Notes under the pieces: model-generated | Seen by the model: only the letters and a program-made list of their open reading frames with translations | Told to the model about the DNA's origin: nothing | The model's database searches: none | DNA from: Candidatus Zhuqueibacterota bacterium | Lineage (GTDB): Bacteria > Zhuqueibacterota > Zhuqueibacteria > Zhuqueibacterales > Geothermadaptataceae | Direction of reading: 5' to 3' | Assembly (NCBI GenBank): GCA_030950365.1 | Contig: JAUZRQ010000002.1 | Location: 124,001-188,000 of the forward strand | Length of the DNA: 64,000 bases | In this document: in pieces, positions 48,811 to 63,416 of the stretch | How the letters are laid out: the number at the start of each line of letters is the position of its first letter | How positions within the stretch are numbered: position 1 is the first letter of the stretch | Position numbers and translations under genes: made by a program

Positions 48811-49040
48811 TTCCCCCAATCCTTCCTGCCGAACATTCATCGTTCGACGTTAATGTTAAACCGATTCCTGCCGATCAAAAGAAAAGTAGAAAAGATCGGT
48901 AGTTTTCTCCCGACCTGGAAGTTGTGTGCCGTGCAGGACGGCCCAGGATTCTGGCGTTTTTGGGCTTCATTCAAATGCCGGTACGTATCTGTACCTCCCA
49001 TGTGCTTTCCCTGATAGACGGACTTCTTGAGGAACGACGA

Positions 49041-49292
49041 ATGAAAAAGGTGCAATGGTTTAGCAGCTCTGAGGTCACGCGGCAACTGAACATTAGTTTG
49101 CGCCAGCTCTATTACTGGGAGCTCAAAGGCATCGTGCGACCGAAAGTGGTCACCATGGGCTCGAGAGAATTCAAACGATATTCCATAGAAGATGTGGAGA
49201 CCCTGCGGCGCATCAAGGAATTGCTGGATCAGGGCTACACCCTGTCCGGAGCCATGAAACAGGCTAAAATCAAAACCATGCAACGGAGTTAG
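49041..49292 (+). CDS. MerR-type DNA-binding protein (DNA-binding domain only)
   Basis: 83 residues from ATG 49041 (GAGG upstream). Winged helix-turn-helix of MerR: FSSSEVTRQLNISLRQLYYWELKGIVRP, then the wing segment REFKRYSIEDVETLRRIKELLDQGYTLSGAM. It lacks the C-terminal coiled coil and effector domain, so it probably dimerises differently or acts as a constitutive regulator. The prepilin peptidase starts 2 bases after its stop. It may regulate the pilus/secretion cluster it heads. Confidence 0.85.
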   Translation: MKKVQWFSSSEVTRQLNISLRQLYYWELKGIVRPKVVTMGSREFKRYSIEDVETLRRIKELLDQGYTLSGAMKQAKIKTMQRS

Positions 49293-49294
49293 GC

Positions 49295-50059
49295 ATGGAG
49301 CCAGCGATTTTATTCGTTCTCGGTGCCATTCTGGGCAGTTTTTTGAATGTGGTGATTTACCGCCTGCCCCGCAAACAATCCATTGTTTCGCCGGGATCGA
49401 CCTGTCCGTTTTGCAGCCACCGTCTGCGGCCCTGGGAAAACGTGCCCATTGTGAGTTACCTTGTATTGAGGGGCCGCTGCTCAAAGTGTCGGCATCGGAT
49501 TCCAATTCGCTACTTTATAGTTGAGGTGTTGACCCCGGTACTTCTACTCACGGTATTTGCATTTTACGGATTGAGCTGGCCGTTTTTCAAAAATAGTCTG
49601 TTGATCCTGTTGCTCATTCCGATCGTGTTCATCGATCTCGATCACCGACTGATTTTGAACAAAATTACCCTGCCGGGCATGGCGCTTGGCCTTGCCCTGT
49701 CGATCGCGGAACATCCGCAGCAATTTTATCAGCCTGTTCTGGGGATGCTGGCCGGTGGTGGACTACTGTGGTTGATCGCCATCCTCGGTCAGATTATGTA
49801 CAAGCAGGAGAGCATGGGGGGCGGGGACATTAAACTGGGTGCCATGATTGGTGCGTTCATGAATCCGCAGAGCATATTATTGGCGTTGTTTCTGGCATTT
49901 TTTATTGCTGCGCTGTTTAGCGTGGTGGGGATGGTGATCGGCAAACTTCAACGCCATAATACTATTCCATTTGGGCCATTCATCGCCGCCGGCGCGTACG
50001 CCGTGGTCAGCTTTAAACAGCAGATTGTGATGCTTTATCTGAATTATATCATGAGATGA
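49295..50059 (+). CDS. pilD: prepilin peptidase / N-methyltransferase
   Basis: 254 residues, inner-membrane aspartyl protease that cleaves type IV prepilin or pseudopilin leader peptides and methylates the new N-terminus. Markers: GSFLNVVIYRLPR, the cytoplasmic zinc-type tetracysteine CPFC...CSKC (about 46-70), catalytic Asp in FIDLDHRLI, and catalytic Asp in MGGGDIKLGAMIG. About seven membrane segments. Overlaps the histidine kinase start by ATGA, so translation is coupled. Confidence 0.94.
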   Translation: MEPAILFVLGAILGSFLNVVIYRLPRKQSIVSPGSTCPFCSHRLRPWENVPIVSYLVLRGRCSKCRHRIPIRYFIVEVLTPVLLLTVFAFYGLSWPFFKNSLLILLLIPIVFIDLDHRLILNKITLPGMALGLALSIAEHPQQFYQPVLGMLAGGGLLWLIAILGQIMYKQESMGGGDIKLGAMIGAFMNPQSILLALFLAFFIAALFSVVGMVIGKLQRHNTIPFGPFIAAGAYAVVSFKQQIVMLYLNYIMR

Positions 50060-51654
50060 CGAAATCCAACATGCAAAACGTCGAACGGACAACCGGATAC
50101 TATTTGAGCAAACGGCGCAATCAGGCGCTTCCGAACGATGCCGCCTTACTGCGGCTATTGATTACCCATGCCGCACAATTCGAAGTTTGCGTGGCTACCT
50201 ATCATCAGAATGCCAGCACGATTTATGTAGATACTCGGCATCCTATTCCATTGAAGGAAATCAAGCGTATTCGCCATAAAGTGCATCAGACGGCCCAGGA
50301 GCTTGGTTGGGCAGTATCGGCTGCAGCAAGCGATTTGGAGTTGTGCATCAATGGTATTTTGGCTAAATATGTCCGCCATACCCGGCAAAACCATCGCCTA
50401 TCCAATTGCTCCTGCTTCGGTGTGAACCTGTTCCATCAGGAGCCGCTGATCGTGTGCGTGTGCGGCGTGGATAGTGAGATTGACGAAGAATTCATGATGG
50501 AATTGCACGCACTGTCCACGGCGCCAGAGGTGGGCTTCCGCGCGTTGCTAGCGAAGGTGTTGCGCAAGACTGAGGATTTGAGCAATATCCTACTGTCGAT
50601 GATTGACGGGGTGATTCTGTGCGATGAAAAAGTGCGTATTCGGTTCATGAATGAGAAAGCGCGCAAACTCTGCGGCTTCGAGCAAGTGCCGCAATTGGGC
50701 TCGCCCCTCGAACCCACCCCCTTGTGCGATCTGACGCAATTGTTGTACGAAGCCATGGAAGACGGCATCACGCAGTTGAATCGCGTCATTCCACTTGGCA
50801 ACAGCAATTCACAGCTTTTGGGCGTGAACATTCAATTTGTGAAGAATTTCATGGGCCAGCCTGTGGGCTGGCTGTTGATTTTGCGCGACATCACGGCAAG
50901 TTGGCAGTCGGATCAAATCCGGTCGATGATTTCCATTGCCAGCCATGAACTTAACACGCCACTGGCCTCGATGAAAAACACCCTCGATTTGTTGCTGGAC
51001 CGCGAGGTAGGCGAGCTAACGCCCAATCAAGAGAAATTTTTGCGCATCATTCAGGATGACATGACCCGGTTGCAAAGGCTGCTGCACGATCTGCTGGATT
51101 TAAGCCGTCTCGAGGATGGCCGAATGGAGCTGGATCGCCGCCGTCACGTGCGTATCGAATTCGTTGCCAATAAAGTAATCGAATCCTTCCGCGTGTTTGC
51201 CGAATCACGTGGCATAACGCTGCGCACAGATATTCCGTCCGGCATCTCTGGTATCAACGGTGACCGGGACCGCATCACGCAAATTTTGGTCAATTTGGTG
51301 GACAATGCCATCAAATATTCGCACTTTGGCGGTGAAGTCATTATTGCCGCGCGGGAAACCGAGGACGAAGTCATCGTTTCGGTGTCCGATCAGGGGGTGG
51401 GGATTTCACAAGAAGACCTGAATTTTATTTTCGAGCGGTTCGTGCAACTTGATAACCTGCCAGAAGGTGTGCATCGAGGATTTGGCCTTGGGCTTAGTAT
51501 TGCCAAAGATATTGTGCAATCCCATCATGGGCGAATGTGGGCAGAAAGTGAACCGGGCAAGGGCAGCACCTTTTATTTTTCGCTGCCGAAAATCGCGTCA
51601 GACGCCAGCAAAGCTGATCCGGCCACAGACGACCGAGCAGAATCAGCGGCTTAA
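50056..51654 (+). CDS. PAS sensor histidine kinase in the pilus cluster
   Basis: 532 residues, coupled to pilD by an ATGA overlap. Residues 1-165 are an unrecognised sensor with several Cys (LSNCSCFG, VCVCGVD) that could bind metal or sense redox; PAS at about 175-290 (GVILCDEKVRIRFMNEKA). HisKA has His297 in ASHELNTPLAS; HATPase has N-box NLVDNAIKYS, DQGVGI and GFGLGLSI. No transmembrane segments seen. The adjacent single-domain receiver is the likely phosphotransfer partner. Confidence 0.88.
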   Translation: MTKSNMQNVERTTGYYLSKRRNQALPNDAALLRLLITHAAQFEVCVATYHQNASTIYVDTRHPIPLKEIKRIRHKVHQTAQELGWAVSAAASDLELCINGILAKYVRHTRQNHRLSNCSCFGVNLFHQEPLIVCVCGVDSEIDEEFMMELHALSTAPEVGFRALLAKVLRKTEDLSNILLSMIDGVILCDEKVRIRFMNEKARKLCGFEQVPQLGSPLEPTPLCDLTQLLYEAMEDGITQLNRVIPLGNSNSQLLGVNIQFVKNFMGQPVGWLLILRDITASWQSDQIRSMISIASHELNTPLASMKNTLDLLLDREVGELTPNQEKFLRIIQDDMTRLQRLLHDLLDLSRLEDGRMELDRRRHVRIEFVANKVIESFRVFAESRGITLRTDIPSGISGINGDRDRITQILVNLVDNAIKYSHFGGEVIIAARETEDEVIVSVSDQGVGISQEDLNFIFERFVQLDNLPEGVHRGFGLGLSIAKDIVQSHHGRMWAESEPGKGSTFYFSLPKIASDASKADPATDDRAESAA

Positions 51655-51695
51655 GATAGAGCGAAGCGGGAGTGGCCATAATAGATAAATTAGCC

Positions 51696-52103
51696 ATGAA
51701 AAAAACGATTTTAATCATCGAGGATTATCCGAACGTGGTGGAAGTGCTGCGCATGAGGCTGCAAAACGCCGGCTATCATGTGCTGGTAGCATTCGATGGC
51801 CAGGAGGGCCTGAAACTGGCGCGCAGCCAGCAGCCAGACCTCATCATTCTTGATATCATGCTGCCCAAGATGAACGGCTACAAGCTGGCCCGTCTGTTGA
51901 AATTCGATGCTAAATACAAACATATCCCGATATTCATGCTGACTTCCCGGACCAAGCCGTCGGATATGCAACTCGGTAAGCAGACGGGAGCTGACGAATA
52001 TATCACCAAACCGTACGATCCAATCGAACTGTTGCGCCTGATCGATAAGCATCTGCGGACCCCCCGGCTTGCTTCGTCCATGGTCGGGCCGAAACGGGCA
52101 TAG
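51696..52103 (+). CDS. single-domain response regulator (CheY-like)
   Basis: 135 residues from ATG 51696; GTG 51672 would add 8 residues. Receiver domain only: acidic pair in IIEDYPN, phospho-acceptor Asp53 (LIILDIMLPKMNG), Thr/Ser switch MLTSRTK and Lys in ITKPYDP. No DNA-binding domain, so it acts by protein interaction, plausibly on the HDOD or PilB-type proteins that follow. It shares the LARLLKFDAKYKHIP segment with the second receiver at 54953, so they are paralogues. Confidence 0.9.
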   Translation: MKKTILIIEDYPNVVEVLRMRLQNAGYHVLVAFDGQEGLKLARSQQPDLIILDIMLPKMNGYKLARLLKFDAKYKHIPIFMLTSRTKPSDMQLGKQTGADEYITKPYDPIELLRLIDKHLRTPRLASSMVGPKRA

Positions 52104-52165: not shown

Positions 52166-53020
52166 ATGAGTCAGGAGAATTTGACCAGGCTTTTGCAAAC
52201 CATTGCAGACCTGCCGACCCTGCCAACCGTGTACATGCGGCTGAACCGTTTGCTGCAATCGCCAAATTCTAGCGCCTCGGAAATTGCCAAAATCATCGAG
52301 TCGGATCAGGCGTTATCCTCCAAGGTGCTGCGGTTGGTCAATTCTTCGTTTTTTGGATTCAGCCGCCAGGTGACACAGATCAGCCATGCGGTGGTGTTGC
52401 TGGGTTTCAATACTGTACGCAATACCGTCCTTTCCATTTCGGTGTTCGAATCATTCAAAACAACCAGCAACCATATCTTTGACCGGCGCCAATTCTGGCT
52501 CCACTCCATCGCAACCGGCCTCATTGCCCGGGCACTGGCACGTAAGTTAAACATAGAACAGGATGAAGAGGCATTTTCTGGCGGTATTTTGCACGATCTC
52601 GGCAAGCTCGTTCTGGATCAGTTCCTGCCGCAGCAATTCACCCAGATTCTCGACATGGCTCGCGAACAGAACTGCTCACTGTTAGAGGCGGAACGTATCA
52701 TTTTGGGGACTGACCATACTGAAATCGGTGAATATCTGATGGAACGGTGGAATCTGCCGCATATGCTGGTAGAGATGGTAGCATTGCACCACACACCTTC
52801 GGTGATGCGCAGCCATCCAACCCTGGTTAGCCTGGTGCATATTGGCGATGCCCTGGCAAGAAGACTCAAATTGGGGTTCGGCGGCGATCATCTGGTACCC
52901 GATATCGATCCTTTTGCACTGGAGGAACTGAGTTTAACTCCAGATATGCTGGAAAACATGCTCGATGACATCCGCGAACAGATACATCAATCGGATGATA
53001 TTTTAGCGCTCGTGAATTGA
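52166..53020 (+). CDS. HDOD domain signalling protein in the pilus cluster
   Basis: 284 residues. Single HDOD domain: DLPTLPTVYMRLNRLL, VLRLVNSSFFGFSRQV, AVVLLGF, HD dyad in GILHDLGK and a later LHHTP segment. Ends 3 bases before pilB, implying coupled expression. It is a full-length paralogue of the HDOD gene at 28140. HDOD proteins act as non-catalytic hubs downstream of two-component systems and c-di-GMP; here the neighbours are a kinase, a receiver and a secretion ATPase. Confidence 0.9.
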   Translation: MSQENLTRLLQTIADLPTLPTVYMRLNRLLQSPNSSASEIAKIIESDQALSSKVLRLVNSSFFGFSRQVTQISHAVVLLGFNTVRNTVLSISVFESFKTTSNHIFDRRQFWLHSIATGLIARALARKLNIEQDEEAFSGGILHDLGKLVLDQFLPQQFTQILDMAREQNCSLLEAERIILGTDHTEIGEYLMERWNLPHMLVEMVALHHTPSVMRSHPTLVSLVHIGDALARRLKLGFGGDHLVPDIDPFALEELSLTPDMLENMLDDIREQIHQSDDILALVN

Positions 53021-53023
53021 AGC

Positions 53024-54727
53024 ATGCTCAAGAAAAATGACCAAAAGCTCGCCAATATCCTCCTCGAAAATCAGGTACTGACGCAAGAGCAACTGGAACA
53101 GGCAGAGCACGAACGCGCCTCCACTGGCGAAGACCTGGCCACGATCCTGATCCGGCGCGGTTTTGCCCGAGTGGATGAGGTGTTGCGTTGCGTGGCCGAA
53201 CAACTGGAACTACCATACATCGACCTGGCCGATTACAGTATTGATCCGGAGGCGCTGGCGCTTTTACCCAAAGAGGTGGCCTACAAATGCAATGCCATCC
53301 CGATTTTTCGCATTGGCAATGTGCTCACCGTGGCTATGAGCGATCCGGGGGACGTCAGCGTGATCGACACCCTGCGGCGCACCACCAAGCTGGAGATCGA
53401 GCCGGTCATCAGCAGTCCTGAGGAGATTCGCGATGCGCTGGAGCAGCACTACGGCCCGCAGGCGGTGCTCGATGATTCCATCGATGAGATGATCCAGAAA
53501 ATTCAGGACGAGCAGCCGGAAGAAAAAGAAGAAGAAACCGAGAAGTTGAAGCAGATCGCCGAGGATGCGCCGGTAATCAAGCTGGTGAATCTGATCATCG
53601 AGCAGGCCATCCGCGACGGCGCTTCGGATATCCACATCAATCCAGATGAAGATTCCCTGCGCGTGCGCTACCGAATCGACGGTATTTTGCATGAAGCGTT
53701 TTCCCCACCGAAAAATCTGCAAGCGGCGATCACGTCGCGTATAAAAATCTTAGCAGAACTGGACATCGCTGAAACCCGGGCGCCACAGGACGGCCGATTC
53801 CAGGCTTCATTCGAAGGGAAAACCGTGGACCTGCGCGTTTCCACCCTGCCAACAGTGTATGGCGAAAACATCGTCATGCGCATTCTGGACAAGAGCAGCC
53901 TGATGCTCAATCTGGAAGACCTCGGCCTCGGCGATGCCATGTTCAAACGGCTGCGCAGCATTCTTTCCAGCTCGTATGGCATCATTCTGGTCACCGGGCC
54001 CACCGGCAGCGGTAAAACCACCACCCTGTACTCCTGCCTGAACTCCATGAACACGCCGGATAAAAACATCATCACGGTGGAAGACCCGGTGGAATACCGG
54101 TTAAAACTGATCCGCCAATCGCAGGTAAATCCGAAGGCCGGCATGACTTTCGCCTCCGGCTTGCGCGCTATTTTGCGGCAGGATCCGGACATCATCATGG
54201 TCGGCGAAATTCGCGATTCCGAAACAGCCAAAATTGCGGTGGAGGCCGCTCTCACCGGGCATTTGGTGCTGTCCACCCTGCACACCAATGACGCCCCGGG
54301 GGCCATCACCCGACTAATCGAAATGGGGGTGGAGCCATTCCTGGTGGCCTCGGCGACGATCGGCATCATTGCGCAACGGCTGGTACGGCGCATCTGCCCG
54401 AAATGTAAAAAGGCTTTCACCCCGCCACGAGAGTATCTCCTCGATCTTGGATTCAATCCCGAGAAGCGCAATTGGGTGTTTTATAAAGGCGAAGGCTGCA
54501 ATAATTGCAAGGGCACCGGCTATAAAGGCCGCGCCGGTATCTACGAGATCATGACCGTGGACGAAGATATCCGGGCGCTGTGCCTGCGTAACGCCTCCGG
54601 CGATGAAATCAAAAAGGCGGCCGTGAAACACGGAATGCGTACCCTGCGGCAGGATGGTTTTTTAAAAGCGCTTCGCGGTATCACCACCATCGAAGAGGTC
54701 ATCCGAGTCACCAATGTGGATGGCTGA
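53024..54727 (+). CDS. pilB: PilB/GspE-type assembly ATPase
   Basis: 567 residues. Hexameric motor that powers pilus extension or type II secretion at the cytoplasmic face of the inner membrane. N-terminal MshEN/T2SSE-N domain (about 1-150; its RLG-x2-L consensus is poorly kept here: STGEDLATILIRRG). The ATPase domain has Walker A GPTGSGKTT (325-333), Asp box ITVEDPVEY, Walker B IIMVGEIRDSETA, and His box LVLSTLHTND. The zinc tetracysteine CPKC...CNNC near 465-490 marks the PilB/GspE branch rather than retraction ATPase PilT. A terminator follows. Confidence 0.94.
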   Translation: MLKKNDQKLANILLENQVLTQEQLEQAEHERASTGEDLATILIRRGFARVDEVLRCVAEQLELPYIDLADYSIDPEALALLPKEVAYKCNAIPIFRIGNVLTVAMSDPGDVSVIDTLRRTTKLEIEPVISSPEEIRDALEQHYGPQAVLDDSIDEMIQKIQDEQPEEKEEETEKLKQIAEDAPVIKLVNLIIEQAIRDGASDIHINPDEDSLRVRYRIDGILHEAFSPPKNLQAAITSRIKILAELDIAETRAPQDGRFQASFEGKTVDLRVSTLPTVYGENIVMRILDKSSLMLNLEDLGLGDAMFKRLRSILSSSYGIILVTGPTGSGKTTTLYSCLNSMNTPDKNIITVEDPVEYRLKLIRQSQVNPKAGMTFASGLRAILRQDPDIIMVGEIRDSETAKIAVEAALTGHLVLSTLHTNDAPGAITRLIEMGVEPFLVASATIGIIAQRLVRRICPKCKKAFTPPREYLLDLGFNPEKRNWVFYKGEGCNNCKGTGYKGRAGIYEIMTVDEDIRALCLRNASGDEIKKAAVKHGMRTLRQDGFLKALRGITTIEEVIRVTNVDG

Positions 54728-54952: not shown

Positions 54953-55357
54953 ATGAAGCAACATCAGATTCTGGTCATTGAAGATGATCGCGATATGGCC
55001 TATCAACTGAAGCTACGTCTGGAGGCGAAAGGCTATGCAGTAGAAACGGTGCAATCTGGTAGCGAAGGACTGGCCAGAGCGCGCGAATATAAGCCGGATG
55101 CCATTGTGATGGATGTGATGCTGCCGGAACTTGATGGCTATCGCATTTGCCGCCTATTGAAATTTGATACCGAATATGAACATATCCCGATTATTGTGGT
55201 TACAGCCCGAACGCTGGAAGAGGACAGGGATATGGCCCTTGAGGTAGGGGCCGATGCTTACCTCACGAAACCGGTGGATTGGAAAGCATTGTATAGTACT
55301 TTGGAAAATTTTCTCGCACCCCAGGCGGAAGAACCGGAAACGGTTGCGAAGTCCTGA
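54953..55357 (+). CDS. second single-domain response regulator
   Basis: 134 residues. CheY-like receiver: VIEDDRD, phospho-acceptor Asp54 (IVMDVMLPELDG), VTARTLEED and Lys in LTKPVDW. No output domain. Paralogous to the receiver at 51696, with a matching CRLLKFDTEYEHIP segment. Start ATG 54953 (GAGGAAGAGG upstream). The pseudo-ATPase starts 48 bases after its stop, so the pair probably forms one transcript and may act together. Confidence 0.9.
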   Translation: MKQHQILVIEDDRDMAYQLKLRLEAKGYAVETVQSGSEGLARAREYKPDAIVMDVMLPELDGYRICRLLKFDTEYEHIPIIVVTARTLEEDRDMALEVGADAYLTKPVDWKALYSTLENFLAPQAEEPETVAKS

Positions 55358-55405
55358 ACCTCGTTGGAATCGAAAGAGCGCCTGTAACAGCATAGGAGAA
55401 CGATC

Positions 55406-57031
55406 GTGGCAAGAAAAAGCTGCCTCCTTGGCGATTTCCTGGTGGAGCAGGGAATCATTACTCGAGAGCAATTACGAGAAGCGCTGAAATATCATCATGA
55501 AAAGGGCATTCGGCTCGGCCGAGCATTGATTGCCCTGGGCTTTGTCAATGAAGATCAGATCATTCGGGCACTCAGCGAGCAGTTGAGTGTACAGTATGTG
55601 AAATTAAAGACGTACAAGGTGGATCCGGAGGTGCTGAAGCTGATCAAAGGGGACATCGCATGGAATTATCTGGCGCTGCCGCTATTCCGGATCCGGGACC
55701 GACTGACTGTGGCTATGGTCAACCCACTGGACATTTTTGCCATCGACGCACTGACACGTGCCAGCAAGATGAAGATCGAGCCGGTGGTGTGTTCGGAAAC
55801 CGACATGCATGAAGCGCTTCGCAAGTATTACCCGAAGCGAACCACCGTGGTGGCAAAACAGGACATCACCGAAGCCCGCCAGTCGGCCCCTGTAAAGGAG
55901 AACGCAGCCGCGCCGCAAAATGGTTACTGGCAAAAAATTGACGACTTTCTGGCGCAATTGGCCGAGAAAAAGGCGCGGCAGGCCTTCGTGCTGGGCGAGA
56001 AAATCCGCGTGGATTTTGGCGAATATTACGAAGATTGGAACCTGCCTGAGAATCTCGATAAAAGCAGTTTCATCCGCATGTTGTGCAGTCTGGGCGATGA
56101 AGTGAGTACTTACGAGCGGTTGCCGCACCGGTTCCTCATTGATAAAAAATACACCGATGGCCCATGCCGTTATCACGTGCTGGCCGGCAGCGGCGTGAAA
56201 TCGGAGACGGCGATGATCACGCTGCAAATGCCGCGCGAGCTGAATCAGAACGGGCTGGCCAAAGATTCGCTGCTAGCCCGTTTGCTCGAAGCGCTACCGC
56301 ATTCGCCGGGCCTTGTGATTCTCGCCGCATCTGAGTTTTATTTGCTGGATCAGGTGTTCTATACCACATGGCAGGCTATCAGCGGCAAATACCGGTATCC
56401 GATCGCCATTGAAAATCAGCCAACGGCCTTTCTGCCAGATGCAACTCAGCTCATTTCCTGCCATCCAGCGGAGCAGCTCGCCATGCTACGCTACGTGCAG
56501 GCCGCCAACTGCGATTGCCTGTTCCTAAAAAATATTGTCGATCCGACAGTGCTGGAGCAAGTGGTGCAACTGGCCGAAACCGGGCTGCCGATCGTTCTGG
56601 GCCTGGTAACGGCAAAGCCCTGGATGGCGCCCGAGCTTCTGTTCGGCGCTGGCGATGGCAATCAGAAATTCACTCGGTTAGTGCAACAGATGTATTACCG
56701 TGCGTCTGTTGCCCGGCTGTGTCCGGAGTGCCGCAAGAAAGTGCCACCGCCGCAGCCTTTAAAGAAACTGCTCAACGGCAAAAGTGAGCTTACCGTTTAC
56801 GACGATTCTGGCTGCGAAGCCTGCAAGCAACAAAACCGTCGTGACCGCGAAATTGTTGAGTTTCTATGGCAGGCGCACCGGGTTGGCGAGCAGCAGAATG
56901 GCCGCAATGGTCGCCGTAATGGACACGTGGCCCGAGAAATCCGCAAAGCCCTCGAACAACAACTCCTCCCGCGCCTGAAAAAAGGAGAGATTGGCCTGTC
57001 GCAGGTGCTGCCATTGCTGACTGCAGAATAG
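55406..57031 (+). CDS. PilB/GspE-like pseudo-ATPase (MshEN domain plus degenerate motor, zinc motif retained)
   Basis: 541 residues from GTG 55406 (AGGAGA upstream). Residues 1-150 form an MshEN/GspE-N domain with the consensus c-di-GMP-type motif RLGRALIALGF (about 36-46) and QIIRALSEQ. The rest aligns along PilB but every ATPase motif is gone: Walker A is AASEFYLLD, the Asp box is IAIENQPTA, Walker B is CLFLKNIVD, and the His box is IVLGLVTAK. The zinc tetracysteine is kept: Cys439, Cys442, Cys470, Cys473. An inactive paralogue that might cap, mix into or regulate the PilB hexamer, possibly as the nucleotide-sensing subunit. The homology is read by eye. Confidence 0.82.
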   Translation: MARKSCLLGDFLVEQGIITREQLREALKYHHEKGIRLGRALIALGFVNEDQIIRALSEQLSVQYVKLKTYKVDPEVLKLIKGDIAWNYLALPLFRIRDRLTVAMVNPLDIFAIDALTRASKMKIEPVVCSETDMHEALRKYYPKRTTVVAKQDITEARQSAPVKENAAAPQNGYWQKIDDFLAQLAEKKARQAFVLGEKIRVDFGEYYEDWNLPENLDKSSFIRMLCSLGDEVSTYERLPHRFLIDKKYTDGPCRYHVLAGSGVKSETAMITLQMPRELNQNGLAKDSLLARLLEALPHSPGLVILAASEFYLLDQVFYTTWQAISGKYRYPIAIENQPTAFLPDATQLISCHPAEQLAMLRYVQAANCDCLFLKNIVDPTVLEQVVQLAETGLPIVLGLVTAKPWMAPELLFGAGDGNQKFTRLVQQMYYRASVARLCPECRKKVPPPQPLKKLLNGKSELTVYDDSGCEACKQQNRRDREIVEFLWQAHRVGEQQNGRNGRRNGHVAREIRKALEQQLLPRLKKGEIGLSQVLPLLTAE

Positions 57032-57045
57032 AGCCAGACATAAAA

Positions 57046-57077
57046 AAACGCCAGGCACCTGCAGGGCGCCTGGCGTT
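57046..57077. terminator. CAGGCACC-family hairpin, copy 3 (bidirectional)
   Basis: Stem AACGCCAGGC-ACC-T with AGGGCGCCTGGCGTT (about 57047-57060 and 57063-57077). A run of seven A before it and TTTGCTTTT after it make it a terminator in both directions, between the pseudo-ATPase (plus) and the M14 gene (minus). Confidence 0.85.
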
Positions 57078-57104
57078 TGCTTTTGAGGGATATCGCCAAT
57101 ATTC

Positions 57105-62766: not shown

Positions 62767-63015
62767 ATGAAAACGACTGTTGGGGAAATTGAAGCTCAGA
62801 GCCGGTGGGAAGAGTTGCTGGATATGGTGCATCAGGGAGCCGAGGTGATCATTACTCGTACAGGCAAACCTGTGGCAAAATTGGTCCCTGTGCAGGAAAA
62901 TGGCAAACGGACCAGCAAGCGAACCCGAAAAATCTTTAAAGAGTTCGCCAGCATTCGAAGAAAGGTCAAGCATCCCGTTGATATCAAATCTTTGATCTCT
63001 GAGGGGCGGGCATGA
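62767..63015 (+). CDS. Phd/YefM-type antitoxin
   Basis: 82 residues. The N-terminal KTTVGEIEAQSRWEELLDMVHQGAEVIITRTGKPVAKLVP matches Phd/YefM antitoxins; the N-terminal fold binds the operator and the C-terminal tail neutralises the toxin. Overlaps the toxin start by ATGA. AT-richer than the chromosomal core, consistent with an acquired module. Confidence 0.88.
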   Translation: MKTTVGEIEAQSRWEELLDMVHQGAEVIITRTGKPVAKLVPVQENGKRTSKRTRKIFKEFASIRRKVKHPVDIKSLISEGRA

Positions 63016-63416
63016 AGTGGGTGGTTGATTGCTCTTTCGTTGCCGCACTATTCCTGCCTGATGAAGCTTCTGATTCTGTGGATCAATTCTTTTCAAAATT
63101 GTCTGCTGAAGATGAGTTAATTGTACCGACATTATGGCAATATGAATTGGCCAATGTCCTCATATTAGCGGAGAAAAAGAAGAGGCTTGATGCAAATCAA
63201 GTGAAGAAAATATTTGATCTAATTGAGGAATTGAATTTTCAAGTTGATCATAATGAAGTCGATTCTCATAAATTGTATGAATTGGGGAGACAATTTAACT
63301 TAACCACTTATGATGCGGTGTATTTAGAAGCAGCCATGAGGTATAATGCTGGTTTGGCTACGCTTGACAAACCACTCGCTCATGCTGCTCAAAAATGCAA
63401 TCTTATTGTAGTATAG
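63012..63416 (+). CDS. VapC-type PIN-domain toxin
   Basis: 134 residues. A PIN-domain ribonuclease that would cleave RNA when released from its antitoxin. Acidic active-site positions: VVDCSFVAALFL (Asp near 6), PTLWQYELANVL (Glu near 45), and TTYDAVYLEAA with the downstream LATLDKPL. Translationally coupled to the antitoxin (ATGA overlap). Phd-type antitoxins with PIN toxins are a known combination. Confidence 0.9.
   Translation: MKWVVDCSFVAALFLPDEASDSVDQFFSKLSAEDELIVPTLWQYELANVLILAEKKKRLDANQVKKIFDLIEELNFQVDHNEVDSHKLYELGRQFNLTTYDAVYLEAAMRYNAGLATLDKPLAHAAQKCNLIVV

Follow-up and report, generated by a model that had tools for sequence, protein, structure and literature searches.

The 64,000-nucleotide stretch of DNA analysed here (the window) carries, on its forward strand, a cluster of pilus and regulatory genes in which an active-type PilB is followed, beyond a stand-alone receiver, by a second PilB-like protein that lacks the motifs of a working ATPase. 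The genes that lead up to this second protein are as follows.

48924..49292, + strand: MerR-type regulator, head of the cluster (Pfam, gene order)
49295..50059, + strand: prepilin peptidase PilD (Pfam, gene order)
50056..51654, + strand: PAS histidine kinase (Pfam, gene order)
51672..52103, + strand: stand-alone receiver (Pfam, gene order)
52166..53020, + strand: HDOD protein upstream of PilB, position conserved (Pfam, gene order)
53024..54727, + strand: active-type PilB with all ATPase motifs and a decayed c-di-GMP motif, 31.4 bits against a cut-off of 38 (Pfam, NF053729, alignment)
54953..55357, + strand: stand-alone receiver between PilB and the pseudo-ATPase, present in all tandem loci read (Pfam, gene order)

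Our survey took in 82 genomes of the phylum (candidate division KSB1). At all loci, as far as the contigs reach, the genes run MerR, PilD, kinase, receiver, HDOD, PilB, receiver, second PilB copy (an intact form, B2, or the dead copy described below), NtrC and PilC, with extra genes ahead of PilC in the f4 loci; the tandem of PilB, receiver and B2 or dead copy keeps this order in the 15 loci, the window aside, in which both genes could be read. In relatives the dead copy is followed by NtrC and PilC; in the window genome this pair is found on contig C121. Because this genome also encodes PilT, a PilQ-type secretin, PilM, PilC and class III (pilin-type) leader peptides, it likely makes a retractable pilus, and the same genes rule out a broken pilus system. 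A promoter scan of the region returned sites no more numerous than in shuffled sequence.

The gene of interest begins with a GTG codon and comprises the following elements.

55394..55399, + strand: AGGAGA, likely ribosome-binding site of the pseudo-ATPase gene, upstream of the GTG start
55406..57031, + strand: PilB-like pseudo-ATPase of 541 aa, orthologue of the second PilB copy B2 (Pfam, NF053729, BLASTP, alignment, tree, profile, model)
55424..55495, + strand: MshEN half-motif I, residues 7-30, LLGDFLVEQGIITREQLREALKYH, with Arg changed to Leu and Gln to His (motif comparison)
55511..55582, + strand: MshEN half-motif II, residues 36-59, RLGRALIALGFVNEDQIIRALSEQ, near-canonical, RLG...Q (motif comparison, NF053729)
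56327..56353, + strand: lost Walker A, GPTGSGKTT replaced by ASEFYLLDQ (alignment with PilB)
56402..56428, + strand: lost Asp box, ITVEDPVEY replaced by IAIENQPTA, one Glu kept (alignment)
56513..56542, + strand: Walker B remnant, DIIMVGEIRD replaced by DCLFLKNIVD, first Asp kept, catalytic Glu changed to Asn (alignment)
56597..56620, + strand: lost His box, STLHTNDA replaced by LGLVTAKP (alignment)
56720..56731, + strand: CPEC, first tetracysteine pair, C439 and C442 (alignment)
56813..56824, + strand: CEAC, second tetracysteine pair, C470 and C473 (alignment)

Comparison of these motifs in a sequence alignment of 35 relatives bears out the original prediction that the ATPase motifs are all lost: Walker A, Asp box, Walker B and His box are each replaced, with two acidic remnants. 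Across the dead copies, the catalytic Glu of Walker B has become Asn or Asp, and the pseudo-ATPase does not have the Arg of QDGR where the alignment would place it. The predicted tetracysteine (Cys439/442/470/473) is indeed present in the window protein; in two orthologues (G002 and G004, loci L006 and L007) it is gone as well, together with part of the C-terminus, indicating that the zinc module is dispensable in the dead form. The further claim of an end-to-end alignment with PilB holds for residues 8-481, which BLASTP matches to the window PilB (53024-54727) at 24% identity (E 7e-32), and does not extend to the last ~60 residues, which stay outside the pairwise alignment. Among family models, Pfam MshEN passes with 69.4 bits against a cut-off of 23.1; T2SSE (PF00437) fails at 21.7 against 24.9, its match confined to the C-terminal Cys4 part, and TIGR02538 (PilB) fails at 80.5 against 675.65, a cut-off that is strict taken alone, as the window PilB itself reaches 672.3, just below it. 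Judged by its sequence, the pseudo-ATPase is a relative of PilB/GspE by descent that lies outside the active ATPase family, since the motifs defining that family were tested for and are missing, and it presumably does not hydrolyse ATP.

A profile of residues 176-541 built from six orthologues, and so excluding MshEN, matched PilF, GspE, PilB, PilT and PilU only when searched against PDB sequences to E 10 (best 2.5e-10; PilT and PilU marginal), and aligned to a PilB profile in hhalign with a probability of 97.9% over 282 columns. An AlphaFold2 model computed from dead copies only (pLDDT 67.7) likewise had PilB (5tsh, the top match, 3.6e-16) and PilF as its best PDB matches. With intact B2 sequences added, pLDDT was 78.2, PilB and GspE led the PDB matches (TM normalised to target up to 0.64 for PilB, with domain orientation uncertain), and the N-terminal domain fitted MshE with c-di-GMP at 2.0 Å over 138 columns; since active relatives went into it, this second model does not test the assumed fold independently, whereas the model from dead copies only does. 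The MshEN-free searches and the latter model rule out an MshEN domain fused to an unrelated one. As the original prediction expected of both structure prediction and comparison with PilB/GspE families, the protein outside MshEN is, by profile and model, a true PilB motor region with a predicted N2D and RecA-like CTD fold.

Orthologues adjoin an intact pilB in five of the six other species of the window family, spread over three genera, so that the pairing of a pseudo-PilB with an active PilB, for which the original prediction had suggested surveying relatives, is conserved. Their identity to the window protein is 81% in G001, ~42% in G003 and G005, and 34-35% in G002 and G004; Walker motifs are absent from all the orthologues in these five genomes (G001-G005), and purine-rich sites precede the orthologous genes too. 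Open frames are full-length in six species of three genera, the window species included. The remaining genome, G006 (67% complete, 840 contigs), has a pilB after which the receiver and the dead copy are missing, and a dead copy is absent from the rest of the genome too. By the Nei-Gojobori method, dN/dS between the window and G001, approximate given the high dS, is 0.088 for the whole dead-copy gene (MshEN 0.032, dead ATPase part 0.104, C-terminus 0.062) and 0.029 for PilB; between the dead copies of G003 and G005, where dS is low, it is 0.022. The dead copy is under purifying selection across the window family. A chance or spurious frame is ruled out by the congeneric orthologue at 81% identity and by the alignments, and a local pseudogene by the dN/dS values and the conserved orthologues.

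Outside the window family, three f4 genomes, which belong to the same class, and seven from beyond that class (f14-f17) have a second MshEN ATPase (B2) ~2 kb downstream of pilB; wherever the motifs are assembled, B2 has kept its Walker A, Asp box, Walker B and His box. An MshEN tree unites the dead copies with B2 and with two degenerate proteins (f9, f11) in a single clade (100/99), inside which the dead copies of the window family are monophyletic (100/100); f9/f11 and the window family may or may not share a single ATPase loss (p-AU 0.207). Taken phylogenetically, the survey shows the dead copy to be a descendant of B2, a PilB-type extension ATPase that was the tandem neighbour of PilB in the ancestor shared by these KSB1 lineages. 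The original prediction had taken Walker-retaining homologues in related genomes as the mark of a local pseudogene; here the outcome is mixed, as Walker motifs do persist in homologues from other families, yet in one family the dead form has become fixed and is under purifying selection.

Several further second copies were seen in the survey. The degenerate B2 relatives at L011:400-1995 (G046) and L048:768-2486 (G044) have the Walker A sequences GPSGSGKT and GPNESGRT and no Walker B or His box; because these loci have no tandem PilB and a stop interrupts the family match of the G046 copy, the two may represent true decay. Truncated second copies at outlying loci proved to be contig ends, not further decays. 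Tandem PilB-type pairs with a receiver between them, their motifs intact as far as the contigs cover them, occur at L044, L045, L046, L060, L061, L062, L063, L064 and L066, in several KSB1 families, and intact PilB and B2 in tandem apparently make up a two-motor pilus system in its own right.

We turn to the N-terminal domain, in which the two half-motifs are separated by a spacer of five residues. NF053729 is a curated c-di-GMP motif model (cut-off 38) that scores the motif and does not measure affinity. The claim that the pseudo-ATPase holds a better c-di-GMP consensus than the active PilB stands as regards this score (69.5 against 31.4 bits) and the near-canonical RLG of half-motif II; it does not extend to half-motif I, where Arg is replaced by Leu and Gln by His. 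These two ligand-contact positions deviate, and all four motif Gly and most hydrophobics are kept; in the window PilB, three of those four glycines are replaced, by Ala, Gln and Ala. The MshE variants G11L and G40I were not stabilised by ligand (PMC5013675). In all six dead copies both the canonical Arg and the canonical Gln are missing from half-motif I; two of them additionally lack one motif glycine, and intact B2 also has Leu at the first Arg. Besides the window protein, dead copies score 58.7 and 53.0 bits and intact B2 proteins 67.6, 71.1 and 58.9, whereas PilB scores 37.5 and 38.6 elsewhere in the window family (f1), 33.2 in f4, and 70.7 and 61.9 in outlying families. In f1 and f4, a PilB weak in the c-di-GMP motif apparently accompanies a B2 or dead copy that keeps it, a reciprocal split into motor and sensor that rests on a modest sample, with PilB motifs variable in outlying families, where some also miss glycines. 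From sequence and model, the MshEN domain of the pseudo-ATPase is predicted to bind c-di-GMP, and five GGDEF matches rule out a genome without this messenger.

Between the dead copy and B2, MshEN retains 52-65% identity and the motor part 13-20%, which points to the contacts made by MshEN, with ligand and docking partner, as the preserved function. The same disparity, a strongly conserved MshEN beside a diverged motor part, favours a c-di-GMP-dependent regulator working at the dock of the motor rather than a simple mixed ring. The reading we prefer, with a probability of about 0.5, is that the dead copy, descended from the tandem B2, acts through MshEN as a c-di-GMP-binding regulator of the PilB-driven pilus machine, without ATP hydrolysis. 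It would bind c-di-GMP through MshEN and dock, via a domain that PilB also carries, onto PilB or the sites that PilB uses on the machine (PilM/PilN/PilC), such that the c-di-GMP level would gate pilus extension through the docked protein; other signals would come in from the conserved neighbouring kinase, receivers, HDOD and NtrC. In order of events, tandem duplicates would have come first, a weakening of the PilB sensor motif (f1 and f4) second, and the loss of B2 catalysis in f1 last, a course that suggests the conversion of one motor gene into a dedicated regulator. Least certain is the form of action, whether as a subunit of a mixed ring, a ring of its own or a monomeric adaptor. A natural mixed motor, in which ATP hydrolysis would fall to a PilB no longer able to sense c-di-GMP, and c-di-GMP sensing, with gating from inside the ring or from the dock, to a dead PilB subunit, is a possibility that we entertain tentatively.

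N2D and CTD form the ring contacts in known PilB hexamers. A heteromeric motor, the model of the original prediction, with the dead subunit in the PilB ring or capping it and its c-di-GMP state setting the work of the active subunits, would fit the shared cluster, the paralogy and the PilB-like predicted fold; Walker-dead PilT can cooperate with PilU (PMC11656802), and reviews discuss mixed rings in pilus motors as an open question and also leave open why some bacteria have more than one PilB (PMC4471445, PMC11656802). The N2D and CTD of the dead copy, however, are only 16-20% identical to those of B2 (16-22% to B2 or PilB), compared with 61-78% among the active proteins, so that interfaces with PilB may not survive; the divergent QDGR position and the missing Cys4 of G002 and G004 also weigh against such a ring, and we regard it as unlikely. 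Alternatively, the protein might be uncoupled from the motor, serving as a receptor that passes the c-di-GMP signal to the cluster's kinase, receivers or NtrC, for instance in control of matrix or pilin expression. A receiver lies directly upstream and, in most loci, NtrC directly downstream, and Myxococcus PilB provides a precedent for an effect on exopolysaccharide: its Walker A mutants have raised exopolysaccharide and abolished motility (PMC11656802), and its substrate-free state is thought to affect exopolysaccharide production. But the whole PilB-like architecture is kept, more than a bare receptor needs, and the NtrC gene of the window genome sits on another contig; this alternative, too, we regard as unlikely. 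That the gene is a redundant second PilB in decay, with MshEN its slowest part to go, might be read from the two degenerate B2 relatives in other families (one, G046_x, with an internal stop), the loss of Cys4 in one genus and an ATPase part evolving faster than in PilB, but is very hard to reconcile with full-length frames in six species of three genera, with dN/dS of 0.09 overall, 0.10 in the dead ATPase part and 0.02 between G003 and G005, where neutral decay would approach 1, and with a conserved start region, Shine-Dalgarno sequence and gene order.

A regulator derived from a motor in this way would differ from the systems closest to it. With the PilB/PilF/GspE extension ATPases (TIGR02538, PF00437) the dead copy shares the MshEN, N2D, CTD and Cys4 architecture, predicted fold, operon position and descent; unlike them, it lacks Walker A, the catalytic Glu and the His box and falls below the T2SSE and PilB cut-offs. 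Like the MshEN receptors MshE, NfrB and Clostridium perfringens PilB2, it has two 24-residue half-motifs with a five-residue spacer, passes NF053729 and models onto MshE with c-di-GMP, but in half-motif I Leu takes the place of Arg and His that of Gln, and the partner domain, an active ATPase or glycosyltransferase in those receptors, is here a dead ATPase. Acinetobacter baylyi has two PilB-like proteins, TfpB and PilB, in one pilus system, an arrangement similar to the intact B2 and PilB tandem; TfpB is described as a second extension motor (PMC8213720), whereas the dead copy is missing the ATPase motifs, and the TfpB model NF053534 found no match in it at E<=1. PilT and PilU are likewise cooperating paralogous ATPases, and Walker-dead PilT has been studied (PMC11656802), but they act in retraction and their inactive forms are laboratory mutants, in contrast to the natural dead paralogue here. 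The PilB inhibitors CpiA and Aqs1 may be comparable in function, if the dead copy likewise restrains PilB; CpiA, reported to have no homology to known domains (PMC8213720), is not PilB-derived, unlike the dead copy. We found no description of a natural PilB/GspE pseudo-ATPase in the open-licence papers that our searches covered. With a PilB inactivated in nature and fixed next to an active one whose c-di-GMP motif is weakened, the role of a sensor domain separated from catalysis could be examined directly.

Some minor observations concern the wider genome and the rest of the window. Outside the window, L054 (G000:C49:98001-112000) holds a GspF and pseudopilin cluster with no adjacent GspE; because the window PilB is the only intact extension ATPase in the whole genome, it may serve two systems, or a gspE may be unassembled. 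Within the window, an open reading frame at 63012-63416 looks PIN-domain-like by eye, and between the pseudo-ATPase gene and a convergent M14 peptidase gene, at 57046-57078, lies a strong hairpin of 14 pairs with a T run, terminator-like on the minus strand.
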